A stretch of 64,000 nucleotides of DNA from Nitrospirota bacterium. GTDB taxonomy: Bacteria; Nitrospirota; Nitrospiria; Nitrospirales; Nitrospiraceae. A program made the translations under genes and the position numbers. The stretch spans positions 70,203 to 134,202 of the forward strand of contig JBFLWP010000007.1 in assembly GCA_040757595.1 (NCBI GenBank), written 5' to 3'. Under the pieces are notes generated by a model. That model was not told the origin of the DNA and did not search any database. It saw nothing but the letters and a program-made list of their open reading frames with translations. Position 1 is the stretch's first letter. Each line of letters begins with the position of its first letter. Of this stretch, positions 1,049 to 6,075 are shown piece by piece.

Positions 1049-1972
1049 GTGCCGTTGAAGTACGCGCTCTATCCGGGCTGTGCCGCCAAGGGGGCGACTC
1101 CGGAGCTCTACCAGTCCACCATGGCCATCGTCGGCCGGCTAGGGATAGACGTGGTCGAGCTGACCGCCTCGTCCTGCTGCGGGGCCGGCGTGATCGGAGA
1201 GGGGGAGCCGGAAGTCGCCCTGGCCTTGAGCGCCAGGACCTTCGCCCAGGCGGAGCAGCTCGGCCTGGACATCATGACGATCTGCGGCACTTGCCAGGGC
1301 GTCATGGGTTCGGCGAACAAACGACTCAAGGGCGACAGGGCATTGCTGGACCGGATCAACCAAGTGCTGGAGCGGGACGGGCTCCGTTACAGCGGGAAGG
1401 TCCAGGTCAAGCACCTGCTCTGGATCGTCGTACGGGAAGTCGGGCTCGCCAAGCTGGCCGCGGAGGTCAGGACCCCGATGGACCAGTTCCGGATCGCCCC
1501 CTTCTACGGGTGCTACATCCTGCGGCCCTCCTGGGATGTCGGGTTCGACGATCCGGAAAACCCCACGTCGCTGGAGAAGGTCATTCGGACCGTGAAGGGC
1601 GAGCCGGTGGCCTACGCAGGCCGGACCAAATGTTGCGGGTTCCCGATCATCCTCGAAAAGGAAGCCATTGCGGTGGCGATGGCCGGGCAGAACATGAAGG
1701 AGGCCAAGGACGGAGGAGCGGACTTCATGGTCACCCCCTGTCCGCTCTGCCACATGAGCCTGGACATCTATCAGGACCGGGCGGGACGGGCGGTCAACGC
1801 CAGGCTCAGCCTGCCGATCCTGCACCTGCCGCAACTGCTCGGGCTGGCCATGGGAATCCCGGCCAAGGATCTGGGGGTCTCCCGACACCTTGTCCCGGCA
1901 GACTCCATCATCCACACGATCGAGCGGCACCAGGCCGACCAGAAGCCATCCTCGAGGAGCCTGATACGATGA
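1049..1972 (+). CDS. HdrB-like CCG-domain iron-sulfur protein
   Basis: This is a 307-residue member of the heterodisulfide reductase subunit B / cysteine-rich (CCG) domain family. Two CCG modules are complete: C11, C43-C44, C79 and C82 in the first; C155, C195-C196, C231 and C234 in the second. In HdrB such clusters hold non-cubane [4Fe-4S] centres that handle two-electron disulfide or thiol chemistry; relatives also occur as subunits of succinate or other dehydrogenases. No HdrA or HdrC partner lies beside it, so its electron partners are unknown. The start is GTG behind a GAGG site; no signal peptide, so cytoplasmic. It overlaps the following cupin gene by 4 nt and is probably co-translated with it. 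The family call is secure; the precise role is not. Confidence 0.8.
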   Translation: MPLKYALYPGCAAKGATPELYQSTMAIVGRLGIDVVELTASSCCGAGVIGEGEPEVALALSARTFAQAEQLGLDIMTICGTCQGVMGSANKRLKGDRALLDRINQVLERDGLRYSGKVQVKHLLWIVVREVGLAKLAAEVRTPMDQFRIAPFYGCYILRPSWDVGFDDPENPTSLEKVIRTVKGEPVAYAGRTKCCGFPIILEKEAIAVAMAGQNMKEAKDGGADFMVTPCPLCHMSLDIYQDRAGRAVNARLSLPILHLPQLLGLAMGIPAKDLGVSRHLVPADSIIHTIERHQADQKPSSRSLIR

Positions 1973-2289
1973 AAATCGTGAAACTCTCAGATTATCATCA
2001 GTTTAGCTCTGAAAAGATGAAGAAGAACAATATCTTTCAGACGCCCAGATTTTTCTGCGACGTCTACTGCTTCGAGCCGGGCCAGGAACAGAAGGGGCAC
2101 GTCCACGGGGATCAGGACAAGATCTACATCGTCCTAGAAGGGCAGGGGACTTTCCGGGTCGGGCAAGAAGAACAAGTCTTGGAACCGGGGCAGGGCACCC
2201 TCGCCCCGGCCGGGGAGGAGCATGGGGTCCGCAACCACACCAAGGACCGGCTCCGGGTGCTGGTCTTCGTCGCGCCGAATCCCTCCTGA
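1969..2289 (+). CDS. Cupin-domain protein
   Basis: This 106-residue single-domain cupin starts at the ATG that overlaps the previous stop codon (ATGA). Motif 1 reads PGQEQKGHVHGDQDKIYIV, with metal-ligand candidates H44 and H46 and an acidic residue near D50; motif 2 contributes H85 in EEHGVRNH. The fold would form a small metal-binding beta-barrel, possibly sensing or oxidising a small molecule. Coupling to the HdrB-like gene suggests a shared pathway, but the sequence does not show the substrate. Confidence 0.75.
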   Translation: MKIVKLSDYHQFSSEKMKKNNIFQTPRFFCDVYCFEPGQEQKGHVHGDQDKIYIVLEGQGTFRVGQEEQVLEPGQGTLAPAGEEHGVRNHTKDRLRVLVFVAPNPS

Positions 2290-2388
2290 GAAGTCTACAG
2301 GAGAGCGCGACAGGCAACGGGTGGGAGAACGGTGTCGGCCCAGCCGACCGCCTCCTGCCCGTTGCCTTCTGCGCTCGAGACCGCTCCG

Positions 2389-3381
2389 TTACTGCGCGGG
2401 CGGAGTGATTTCCGTCTGCGGCACCTCCGGCTTCCACGGAGTCTGCGGCATCAACGGAGCCGGCTTTGCCCCGGGGGACGCCACCAGCACCGCGATCGCT
2501 CCCCGCAGCGCCCCGGTCAGGGAATGGGTCACGAGGGGATAGGCGCCGGCCGACTCCACCACCACGTCAAAGGTCGCGGCGCCGCCCGGCCCCACCACGT
2601 AGGTCTGCACCCCCTTCAGACTGTTGGCGGGATTGCCGCTCTCATACACGTTGTCCCAGATCTCTCCGATCGGGTGGAACGCGGAAAACTCGTTGGGGCC
2701 CGCGTTCACGAAGTAGATCCGGACCCGCTCGCCCGGCTTGGCTTCCAGCGCCTTCCCACCGGTCACGAACGGATGGTACTTGAAGACCCCGCCGTTGAAG
2801 ATGATGTGGTCGAACTTCCGGTCGAACATGGCCTGGACGTCATCCGGGTTCTTGAACAGCTCGGACTGCACGAGCACGTACTCCCGGTCGGCCTTGGGCC
2901 AGGCCTTGGCATTCTTGGGATCCACGATGATGGCCCCGAACATGCCGCGGGCCACGTGCTGAATCATCGGGGGCGCGCCGCAATGGTAGAAGAACACGCC
3001 TGGCTTCTTGGCGACGAACGTGTAGCCGATCGTCTCCCCCGGGTTGACGGCTTTGTAGTTGTTGAGAAAGTCGATTTCGGCCGCGTGGAAGTCCATCGCA
3101 TGCGGGTAGGTGTTGGTCTTGGGATTCTCCAGCGTGAACTTGACCGTGTCGCCTTCGGTCACCCGCACCACGGGTCCCGGAAACTGCCCGTTGAACGTCC
3201 AGGCCTTGTATTGCTGGCCTCCGCCCTCCACGACCACTTCGGCCTCGACTGCGGTCATTCGGACCTCATGAGTCTTGGCCGAAACGGGGGAGGCGCTCCA
3301 GGCCATTCCCCCCAAGATTGCGGCACAGCCCAGCGTCACGGCGGCGAACCGCTTCACCGGCAATCCGTTACCAAACGACAT
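2389..3381 (-). CDS. nirK: Copper-containing nitrite reductase (NO-forming)
   Basis: This protein reduces nitrite to nitric oxide in the periplasm. The 330 residues start with a signal peptide (cleavage likely near residue 35) followed by two cupredoxin domains. All expected ligands are visible: type 1 copper H94, C134, H142 and M147; type 2 copper H99, H133 and H286; the catalytic Asp D97 and second-sphere His H236. The segment YHCGAPPMIQHVARGM, with a shortened C-x7-H spacing, is the form typical of nitrifier NirK rather than classical denitrifier enzymes. The ATG has a strong AAGGAGG site. It lies downstream of a Crp/Fnr gene on the same strand, with an Fnr-like box about 96 nt before the start codon, so redox or NO control is likely (inference). 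Confidence 0.92.
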   Translation of the reverse strand: MSFGNGLPVKRFAAVTLGCAAILGGMAWSASPVSAKTHEVRMTAVEAEVVVEGGGQQYKAWTFNGQFPGPVVRVTEGDTVKFTLENPKTNTYPHAMDFHAAEIDFLNNYKAVNPGETIGYTFVAKKPGVFFYHCGAPPMIQHVARGMFGAIIVDPKNAKAWPKADREYVLVQSELFKNPDDVQAMFDRKFDHIIFNGGVFKYHPFVTGGKALEAKPGERVRIYFVNAGPNEFSAFHPIGEIWDNVYESGNPANSLKGVQTYVVGPGGAATFDVVVESAGAYPLVTHSLTGALRGAIAVLVASPGAKPAPLMPQTPWKPEVPQTEITPPAQ

Positions 3382-3470
3382 ACGTGACCTCCTTCGTCAT
3401 GCGACAGTCGGAAAATTGTGGACGGGAACCGAATTGAAGGGAAGGATAGGCCGGCGCAGGAAGGAGCGCT

Positions 3471-3484
3471 ATGATCTAAATCAT
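3471..3484 (-). promoter_or_regulatory. Fnr/Dnr-like operator upstream of nirK
   Basis: The site is a perfect inverted repeat, ATGAT-N4-ATCAT. It overlaps the stop codon of the Crp/Fnr gene and is centred about 96 nt upstream of the nirK ATG. The Fnr consensus is TTGAT-N4-ATCAA, so only the outermost base of each half differs. If it acts as a class II site (-41.5), transcription would start near 3436 with a 55-nt leader. The likely binder is the neighbouring regulator; this is inference. Confidence 0.6.
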
Positions 3485-4216
3485 GTTTTGAGTTTTTCGC
3501 GCGCGGACCGGCATCAACACCCCTTGACAGGAGGCGGAGGCCATTTGTCTGAGCTTCGGCAGATCCCAGATGACCAGGCGTCTGGCCGTGCCGGAGACCA
3601 GGCGCGCCCGTTTGAATCGGCTCATGATCCGGATCGCCGTCTCTACGGTGATCCCCGTCATGTCCGCAAGATCCTGGCGCGTCAACCGGACCGTGAGCCG
3701 CAGCCCGTTACCGTCGCGGATGCTGGCACGCGACGCCAGGTTGGACAGGAGCGCGGCGACCCGCTGCTCGGCCCGGTCCAGAGCGAGCACCTTGGCGTTT
3801 TCCTGCGCCTCGTTGAGCCGGGCGCCCAAGTATCTGATGATGTCCAACGCGGCGTCGGGATTCCGCCGCAACAGATCGAAGTAGGATTTCTTGCTCAAAC
3901 GCAGGACGCTCACGTCCTCCATCGGCAGGGCGCAGCCGGGATGGGGCGCCCCGTCGAAGACCGCCGCCTCGCAACAGAAGAGATCGCCGGGCATCAGGAC
4001 CTTGAGCGTGACCTCCCGGCCGTCCGGCGATGTCTTCACGCACTTGACCGAGCCTTCCTTGAGGATGTGGAAGGAGTCGGCCGGATCGCCCTCCTGGAAG
4101 ATGTACTGGCCCTTTGCATACCGGGTTTCGACGACCTCGCGCGCGACCCGACGGCGGTCCGGCTCAGACAGGAAACGAAACAGAGGGATGGTGTGAAGGA
4201 GATTCGCCTTCTTCAC
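3476..4216 (-). CDS. Crp/Fnr-family transcriptional regulator
   Basis: 246 residues: cyclic-nucleotide-like sensor fold (about 12-130), dimer helix (about 125-160) and winged HTH (about 175-225). The recognition helix contains V191-E192-T193-A194-I195-R196, where Fnr has V-E-T-I-S-R; the Glu and Arg that read the GA of the half-site are kept and the Ser is replaced by Ile. There is no N-terminal Cys cluster, so an oxygen-labile [4Fe-4S] sensor like Fnr is unlikely; a Dnr/NnrR-like NO or haem sensor is possible. The GTG start overlaps the transketolase stop (GTGA), and nirK follows on the same strand. A matching operator sits at the end of this gene. Target and signal are inferred. Confidence 0.85.
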   Translation of the reverse strand: MKKANLLHTIPLFRFLSEPDRRRVAREVVETRYAKGQYIFQEGDPADSFHILKEGSVKCVKTSPDGREVTLKVLMPGDLFCCEAAVFDGAPHPGCALPMEDVSVLRLSKKSYFDLLRRNPDAALDIIRYLGARLNEAQENAKVLALDRAEQRVAALLSNLASRASIRDGNGLRLTVRLTRQDLADMTGITVETAIRIMSRFKRARLVSGTARRLVIWDLPKLRQMASASCQGVLMPVRARKTQNMI

Positions 4217-6075
4217 AAGAGCCGCTTGGCGGTCTCGACGATCATCCTCGCGCTGAGGCCATACCGGTCGAGCAGCTCGTCCGGCTTGCCGCTGTGGGGG
4301 ATCTCCCGGACCGCCATCTTGTGCACCCGGACACCCTCGCTGCCGACCGCGCCCAGAACCGCGTCGCCCAGCCCGCCGTGCTCATAATGGTCCTCGACGG
4401 TCAGGATTCGGCCGCCCGTGGCGCGCGCGCTGTCGAGCAGCGTGGCCCGGTCGATCGGCACGATGCTGTAGAGGTCGATGACGCGCACCGGGATGCCGGC
4501 GGCTTTCAACTGGTCGTGCGCCTTCAGGGCCTCGAACAGCGTCACGCCGGCGGCCACGATGGTCAGCCGGTCCGAAGGACTCTGCCGTACGACCTTCGAG
4601 CCGCCGATCGTGAAGGTCTCGTCGCTTCCGTACAGGATCGGGGACTTGGGGCGCCCGGTCCTGATATAGACCGGCCCCCGGTGGGCCGCGGCCGCTTCAA
4701 CCAGCTTGTGAGTGCAGACCCCGTCGGATGGATAGAGGACCACCATGCCCGGCTGCGCCGCCATCATGGCGATGTCCTCGAGCCCCATCTGGGACGGCCC
4801 GTCCTCGCCGATGCTCACGCCTACGTGGGACCCCATCAGCTTGATGTTGGCCCGGCTGATCGAGGCCATGCGGATGAAGTCGTAGGCGCGGGTCAGGAAA
4901 CAGGCGAAGGTGGCCACGAAGGGAATCTTGCCGCAGGCGGCGAGCCCCACGGCGGCTCCCACCATGTTCTGCTCGGCGATGAAGCTCTCGAAGAACCGGT
5001 CGGGGAACTGCTTGCCGAACTTGTCGGTGAAGGTGGAGTTCTTGACGTCCGCGTCCAGGCCCACCACGAGCGGGTTGGCCTCGCCCAACGCGGCCAGCGC
5101 CGTCCCGAAAGCCTCCCTGGTGGCCACCGAGTCGGCCGGTTTGTACGCGGGCGGCGCCATCGGCTTCGCCGGCTTGGCTCCGGCCGCCGGCGCGTCCGGC
5201 TTCCTGACCTCGGGAGCGGTTCCGTCGGGCTTGAGCTGGCCCGTGAGTTCCCGGATCGCCTTCTCGGTCTCCTCGCCCTTCTTGAGCGGCTTTCCGTGCC
5301 AGTCCGGACGGTCCTCTACGAACGAGATGCCTTTGCCTTTCAAGGTCCTCGCCAGCAGGACGGTCGGCTTGCCCGTCGTCCGCGCGGCTTCGTCAAAAGC
5401 CGCCAGCAACGCCGCAATGTCGTGACCGTCCACCACGATCGCATGCCAGCCGAAGCCGGACCAGCGGGCACGATAGGCCTCCATGTCGTGCTGGAGCATC
5501 GTCGGATCGCTCTGCCCCAGGCGGTTCACGTCCACGATCGCGCAGAGATTGTCGAGTCCGTAATGGCGGGCGATCTCCGCCGCCTCCCAGACCGAGCCCT
5601 CCACGGACTCTCCATCGCCCATCAGCACGTAGGTCCGGTAGCCCGCCCGGTCGATCCGCTTGGCGTTCATCGCCATGCCGACCCCGGCGGCCAGCCCCTG
5701 TCCGAGCGAGCCGGTCGCCACGTCTACGAACGTCAGGCGGGGAGTCGGATGTCCCTCGAGATCGGACTTCAGCGTGCGCAGACCGAGCAGGTCCCGCTTG
5801 TCGAAGAGCCCGGCTTCCGCCCAGGCCGCGTAGAGCAGCGGCGCCGCGTGGCCCTTGGACAGGATGAAGCGATCGCTGTTGGGATGCCGGGGATTTCGGG
5901 GATCATAGCGCATCACGGAGAAGAAGAGCGTCGCGACGATGTCGGCGGCGGAGCAACAGCTCGTTGGGTGCCCGCTACCGGCTTCGCTGGTCGCGCGAAC
6001 GCTTTCGATCCGCAGGTTCGTCGCCTTGTTGTGCAGCGCGGCCACCAATGAGGGAGAGATCCCGGTCGGAGCCAT
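4213..6075 (-). CDS. tkt: Transketolase
   Basis: Thiamine-diphosphate enzyme that moves two-carbon ketol units between sugar phosphates in the non-oxidative pentose phosphate pathway. At 620 residues it is the shorter form rather than the ~660-residue E. coli type. N-terminal pyrimidine-binding and ThDP motifs include SGHPTS (34-39), SKGH (73-76), GDGESVEG (153-160) and N184 closing the Mg/ThDP site; the catalytic Glu is in IAEQN (E368). A Pro/Ala/Lys-rich linker (about 283-315) joins the two halves, longer than usual. The start has a strong AAAGGAGAC site. It heads a unit with the Crp/Fnr gene (4-nt overlap) and probably nirK. Confidence 0.93.
   Translation of the reverse strand: MAPTGISPSLVAALHNKATNLRIESVRATSEAGSGHPTSCCSAADIVATLFFSVMRYDPRNPRHPNSDRFILSKGHAAPLLYAAWAEAGLFDKRDLLGLRTLKSDLEGHPTPRLTFVDVATGSLGQGLAAGVGMAMNAKRIDRAGYRTYVLMGDGESVEGSVWEAAEIARHYGLDNLCAIVDVNRLGQSDPTMLQHDMEAYRARWSGFGWHAIVVDGHDIAALLAAFDEAARTTGKPTVLLARTLKGKGISFVEDRPDWHGKPLKKGEETEKAIRELTGQLKPDGTAPEVRKPDAPAAGAKPAKPMAPPAYKPADSVATREAFGTALAALGEANPLVVGLDADVKNSTFTDKFGKQFPDRFFESFIAEQNMVGAAVGLAACGKIPFVATFACFLTRAYDFIRMASISRANIKLMGSHVGVSIGEDGPSQMGLEDIAMMAAQPGMVVLYPSDGVCTHKLVEAAAAHRGPVYIRTGRPKSPILYGSDETFTIGGSKVVRQSPSDRLTIVAAGVTLFEALKAHDQLKAAGIPVRVIDLYSIVPIDRATLLDSARATGGRILTVEDHYEHGGLGDAVLGAVGSEGVRVHKMAVREIPHSGKPDELLDRYGLSARMIVETAKRLL

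Follow-up and report, generated by a model that had tools for sequence, protein, structure and literature searches.

In Nitrosomonas, nirK is controlled by NsrR, which is a case of dedicated nirK control in a nitrifier; NsrR is an Rrf2-family repressor, and both the protein and its site are unrelated to the Nitrospira regulator and operator considered here. The closest described systems belong to the Crp/Fnr family. NnrR and DNR are Crp/Fnr activators of the genes for NO-forming nitrite reductases, the function proposed here as well, yet His14, His15 and His139 of DNR are unmatched in the present protein, whose operator takes the form ATGAY...RTCAT with A/T flanks and whose regulon would comprise about one site. 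E. coli FNR shares with it the fold, the helix-turn-helix, the E...R contacts of the recognition helix, the HP motif and a 14-bp core with N4 spacing, whereas the regulator lacks the Fe-S cysteines and carries Ile for Ser, and its operator has A for T at the outer base together with extended flanks. The CO sensor CooA resembles it in that Cys81 of the regulator aligns with the haem ligand Cys75 in the motif G-D-x-F-C; in contrast to CooA, His77 is replaced by Glu/Asp, two further invariant cysteines and a histidine are present, and there is no CO operon.

The same arrangement, with an 'Fnr' upstream of nirK, was reported in 2017; the organisms were N. moscoviensis, N. defluvii, OLB3 and UW-LDO-01 (PMC5596200), and the regulator was taken as an FNR oxygen sensor. 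Neither an operator nor a link to tkt is described in that work, which also leaves aside promoter geometry and the comammox question. An NnrR-like protein, which may or may not correspond to the present gene, has also been reported in a Nitrospira MAG (PMC8510549). A search confined to open-access literature found no earlier description of the operator or of the comammox replacement, and these, together with the promoter geometry, appear to be new. The protein family is an ordinary one, placed in a well-defined regulatory circuit that was apparently undescribed before.

Organization and conservation of the locus

The locus lies in a 64,000-nucleotide stretch (the window) of a Nitrospirota genome (assembly GCA_040757595.1, contig JBFLWP010000007.1), and its three genes are read from the minus strand. 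The first gene of the unit is tkt, coding for a transketolase of 620 aa (4213..6075; NCBIfam NF004559, 921.9 bits), whose end shares the sequence GTGA with the start of a Crp/Fnr-family regulator gene of 246 aa with a GTG start (3476..4216; PF00027, PF13545/PF00325). The regulator is followed after a gap of 94 nt by the predicted target, nirK, which codes for a divergent copper nitrite reductase of 330 aa (2389..3381). Against TIGR02376 this NirK scores 212 bits (E=1.1e-62), where the curated cut-off is 296, and it retains the copper-ligand motifs HxMDFHA, YHC and FHPIGEI. The gene overlap, the close succession of nirK and the position of the Fnr-like box had been described in an earlier reading made from the sequence alone, and on re-checking all of the coordinates proved correct. 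Two genes of the window converge with nirK from the plus strand (1049-2289), one for a cysteine-rich protein resembling HdrB/SdhE and one for a small cupin; further families of the order also have a cupin at this position (L083, L085, L087, L090, L091, L095), and one of their loci has an HdrB-like gene there.

For comparison, 67 orthologous regulator loci were fetched from the order. Orthologues at 60-75% identity occur in N. defluvii, N. moscoviensis and many Nitrospira MAGs, and in the window's own family nearly every complete locus has tkt before the regulator and nirK after it. The comparison that the sequence-only reading had proposed, a search of relatives for the orthologue and for the box before nirK, thus found both gene order and box conserved.

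The regulator protein

The protein scores above cut-off for PF00027, PF13545 and PF00325, which gives a cyclic-nucleotide-binding beta-roll followed by a Crp-type winged helix-turn-helix and places it in the Crp/Fnr family; its AlphaFold model (mean pLDDT 84) has GlxR and M. tuberculosis CRP as best PDB folds. Three positions stand out in an alignment of 38 diverse sequences, where they are unchanged down to 42% identity: Cys59 of the sensor beta-roll (4040..4042), Cys81-Cys82 in the motif PGDLFCC (3971..3976) and His92 in an HPG motif (3941..3943), all on the minus strand. The two comparable paralogues of the same genome lack the invariant cysteines. Alignment with CRP would locate Cys59 and Cys81-Cys82 at the effector pocket, where the ribose-contact Glu of CRP is kept as Glu/Asp and two cysteines are present.

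Known ligand sets are matched at most in part. For this comparison the sequences of CooA and DNR (3dkw) were verified against the PDB, and that of E. coli FNR against a close PDB relative. In the alignment the regulator lacks all four cysteines of the FNR cluster (C20, C23, C29, C122), as the sequence-only reading had stated, and the protein reaches 78 bits against PRK11161 (FNR), for which the cut-off is 228. The alignment with 3dkw gave no counterparts of DNR His14, His15 and His139, and the CooA set is incomplete, the equivalent of Cys75 (Cys81) being present and that of His77 being Glu/Asp. These features make a sensor based on haem, Fe-S or thiols plausible, and the signal would most likely be NO or low oxygen, perceived through C59, C81, C82 and H92 by way of a haem-thiolate, an Fe-S centre or thiols, with NO somewhat favoured over low oxygen.

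The operator and the predicted nirK promoter

The operator core ATGATTTAGATCAT (3471..3484, minus strand) overlies the last two codons and the stop of the regulator gene (ATG ATT TAG). Its exact form is present in five copies in the 3.37-Mb genome, and the window holds four sites at up to one mismatch against 0.63 expected; the box taken alone is therefore weak evidence. Its conservation in the loci of relatives lies far beyond chance, since 47 of the 49 family loci have the strict core between the regulator and nirK genes, compared with 0.04 expected from dinucleotide shuffles, and the remaining two carry the box with one mismatch. Seven of seven further regulator-bearing loci also carry it.

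Alignment of the loci on the dyad extends the family core, ATGAY-N4-RTCAT, to a 24-bp palindrome, AAAAC-ATGAY-N4-RTCAT-GTTTT. The window's own operator keeps the AAAAC flank of the 5' arm (3485..3489, minus strand), which is conserved by information content at columns -7.5 to -11.5, and has lost GTTTT from the 3' arm, where the sequence is AGCGC (3466-3470, minus strand; family columns +7.5 to +11.5). This one lost flank counts against the reading of the site as an activator's operator. The FNR site TTGAT-N4-ATCAA is not the family form, and TTGAT is seen only in the subgroup of Val type and in a handful of loci of Ser type.

The specificity residues of the recognition helix, E192-T-A-I-R196 (3629..3643, minus strand), align with ETISR of E. 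coli FNR and ETFSR of DNR, which bears out the earlier remark that Ile takes the place of the FNR Ser. The further claim that this Ile matches the changed outer base of the half-site stood in part. Ile or Thr accompanies ATGA...TCAT and Val accompanies TTGA...TCAA in two separate settings, one group of regulators with ETAVR/ETTVR helices having TTGAT...ATCAA boxes, but Ser occurs with both ATGAT and TTGAT boxes, so that the helix residue alone does not set the outer base.

Downstream of the dyad, a TANNNT hexamer is centred at a distance of 31-34 bp in 58 of 61 loci. In the window it is represented by the predicted -10 hexamer TATCCT (3443..3448, minus strand), with its centre 32.0 bp from the dyad, and the nirK transcription start is accordingly predicted from sequence near 3436, which would centre the operator at -41.5. 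Class II activation by a Crp/Fnr dimer at -41.5 is established for both CRP and FNR, and the dyad-to-hexamer spacing agrees with such a promoter, given the predicted start. No -35-like element is conserved across the loci at the position of the dyad.

Distribution of the operator within and between genomes

Searched for in a 22-bp form with up to two mismatches, the operator turned up in 47 of the 69 family genomes, usually as one copy, and a reversed-pattern control gave almost no matches; most genomes therefore hold one strong site, located between regulator and nirK. The genome of the window follows this trend, as the 18-mer AAACATGAYNNNNRTCAT matches without mismatch only at the nirK site and with one mismatch nowhere. 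A genome-wide regulon sought there with a relaxed pattern was rejected: of 36 matches at up to two mismatches, only the nirK site had fewer than two.

The operator also occurs away from the regulator. A second nirK, 64% identical, stands behind an unrelated peptidase-like gene, and the operator precedes seven of the nine assessable second copies of the first sample, a tenth having been left out for too little upstream sequence. The second nirK genes of G013 and G048 have no box, though both genomes carry the regulator, which counts against the proposed control; both lie outside genus g18. Two additional second copies were discovered through the operator search itself. In related families the regulator is followed by a different NirK clade (36-41% identical), which exceeds the TIGR02376 cut-off in both tested proteins, and several of these loci carry the box or its TTGAT form. 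Related families also have nirK copies of 64-66% identity without the box (L158-L161), even in G102 and G111, two genomes with the regulator at another place.

Two further loci deserve mention. A Nitrospinota MAG (L260) has a regulator of 50% identity, and a perfect copy of the extended operator lies at the stop codon of this gene (4419-4432); it is followed by a sigma-54 response regulator, without an adjacent nirK. Either transfer between nitrite oxidisers or mis-binning may account for it. In L046 (G014) a second copy of the regulator lies between two perfect operators, at about 2611 and 4307, and the reading frame behind the downstream operator is that of a degenerate truncated haemoglobin, a weak hint at NO as the signal.

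Proposed regulation of nirK and alternative explanations

The sequence-only reading had suggested a dedicated Crp/Fnr regulator of nirK, and this is supported by the conservation of the unit, the promoter spacing, the near-single-copy operator, the box on distant nirK copies, its absence where the regulator is missing and the different box that accompanies a divergent regulator. It is quite probable, as judged from these genomic patterns, that the protein is a pathway-specific activator of nirK acting through the conserved operator, with a regulon of nearly one site per genome; that it activates rather than represses, and that the adjacent regulator is itself the binding protein, is what we infer. 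In the proposed circuit the regulator would be produced from the tkt transcript and would probably always be present. Activation of the sensor domain would cause the dimer to bind AAAAC-ATGAY-N4-RTCAT-GTTTT where the regulator gene ends, centred 41.5 bp before the nirK start, and to recruit RNA polymerase in the manner of class II activators; the regulon would be about one site per genome, plus the second nirK copy where present. The suggested tie to carbon metabolism did not hold: as an operator target tkt was rejected, the box lying upstream of it in only one of 54 loci, and tkt probably lends its promoter and transcription to the regulator. The constitutive transcription reported for the nirK copies of N. 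moscoviensis during oxic nitrite oxidation counts against a switch (PMC6606698).

The inverted repeat could instead end the tkt-regulator transcript as an intrinsic terminator, its A-rich arm, hairpin and T-rich arm serving no protein, and in relatives it does lie some 10-50 nt past the regulator stop in the form AAAAC...GTTTT. A terminator would hardly explain why the half-sites are fixed, with TGA/TCA invariant in 55 loci, why the 2.5 pair varies independently (eight C-A mismatches against about nine expected without pairing), why the spacing to the -10 is fixed, or why this site recurs ahead of second nirK copies that stand behind an unrelated gene; the window copy, moreover, has no T-run, and this explanation is very improbable. 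A real box could also be bound by another Crp/Fnr protein of the cell, the adjacent regulator controlling something else. Each genome has several such proteins, the present one having three more homologues at 26-29% identity, one of which has an ETVIR helix. Among the genomes examined, however, the ATGA box occurs upstream of nirK only together with the orthologue of the adjacent regulator, and a divergent orthologue brings a TTGA...TCAA box, as in its subtype elsewhere, which makes a different binder rather improbable.

Direct activation by the neighbouring protein being the preferred reading, the direction of control and the kind of sensor may still be weighed. The sign of control is not readable from sequence alone, and the high expression of NirK in comammox organisms without the regulator (PMC6478695) would suit a repressor released by a signal; repression is nevertheless unlikely, as the dyad occupies a class II activator position that leaves the -10 uncovered and no -35-like element is conserved beneath it. 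A conventional FNR-type oxygen sensor with a broad low-oxygen regulon, as proposed previously (PMC5596200), would agree with membership in the Crp/Fnr family, the FNR-like half-sites and the HP motif common to FNR. We consider it a poor prospect, in view of the missing cluster cysteines (0/4) and of an extended operator that is nearly single-copy per genome.

Comammox Nitrospira

A search with the AMO family identified 15 amoA-positive genomes among the first relatives, none of them with a close regulator orthologue, and in a larger sample, with 42 such genomes, a close orthologue occurs only in G143 and a divergent one only in G136. The ATGA box was absent before all 34 nirK genes (13 + 21) of regulator-less genomes. 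In the nirK tree the comammox-type genes fall together in one clade, separate from the regulated one (SH-aLRT 97), so that the absence of the box from these 34 genes represents one or two evolutionary events, and the independent weight falls on the second copies, the other NirK clade and the divergent regulator.

A truncated-haemoglobin gene (PF01152) follows the comammox-type nirK. In the surveyed loci (L144, L145, L146, L293, L295-L310, L313-L316) this cassette, with a putative signal peptide on the haemoglobin, is near-universal among comammox-type loci and almost absent from regulated ones; the amo cluster adjoins nirK in L144 and L145, and published work places nirK next to hao in certain comammox clades (PMC9714041). 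Four comammox genomes of one genus retain about 38 codons of the regulator's 5' end after tkt, broken at about the same point and followed by the haemoglobin gene and a reverse-oriented nirK; the regulator was therefore once present in these four genomes and then disrupted. Repeated loss in comammox was considered and set aside, as comammox monophyly is not rejected on the tkt tree (p-AU 0.32). With the tkt tree allowing, and the nirK tree showing, a single clade, replacement fits better, and in most comammox Nitrospira the unit appears to have given way to a nirK-truncated-haemoglobin cassette without the switch.

The presence of amoA does not strictly predict the absence of the regulator. 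The amoA-positive G143 (L317, matching the MAG 'RCA Rifle_cladeA') keeps tkt, the regulator and a near-perfect operator (box at 4090), and nirK is missing from the locus. The next long frame on the same strand there (1846-3249, minus strand) codes for a plastocyanin-like and beta-propeller protein with sub-threshold similarity to models of hydrazine synthase beta and clade III lactonase-type NosZ. Several amoA-negative genomes of comammox genera have comammox-type nirK without the regulator and perhaps hold unbinned amo. The comammox-type genomes G136 (amoA-positive) and G138, in which amoA was not detected, carry ahead of nirK a regulator of 43-44% identity, nearest (54-55%) to the ETAVR/ETTVR group, together with the box TTGACATAGATCAA; a regulator of this type would explain the Fnr reported upstream of nirK in the comammox organism UW-LDO-01 (PMC5596200). 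A relaxed TTGA...TCAT match, TTGACCCATATCAT, lies 130 bp upstream of nirK in the regulator-less comammox locus L304 (G147), at the position of the G136/G138 box, and is possibly a relic of the second operator type.

Conclusions

A broader interpretation is offered tentatively, as less likely than not: the regulator may be a new gas or redox sensor, in which a CRP fold whose pocket has an invariant C59/C81-C82/H92 set (haem-thiolate or Fe-S) gates NO production in nitrite oxidisers, and the spread of ammonia oxidation into Nitrospira may have gone with a swap to an unswitched nirK-truncated-haemoglobin cassette.

The role of NirK in nitrite-oxidising Nitrospira is a standing question (PMC6606698, PMC8115632), and a dedicated switch offers a direct test of it; the signal of the switch, once found, would tell when these bacteria want NO. 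NirK has been reported as very abundant in the comammox N. inopinata, also under oxic conditions (PMC6478695), and the swap of the switched nirK in comammox, together with this abundance, suggests a different role there. The switch may also serve as an easy genomic marker to distinguish regulated from unregulated NO formation in nitrifiers.
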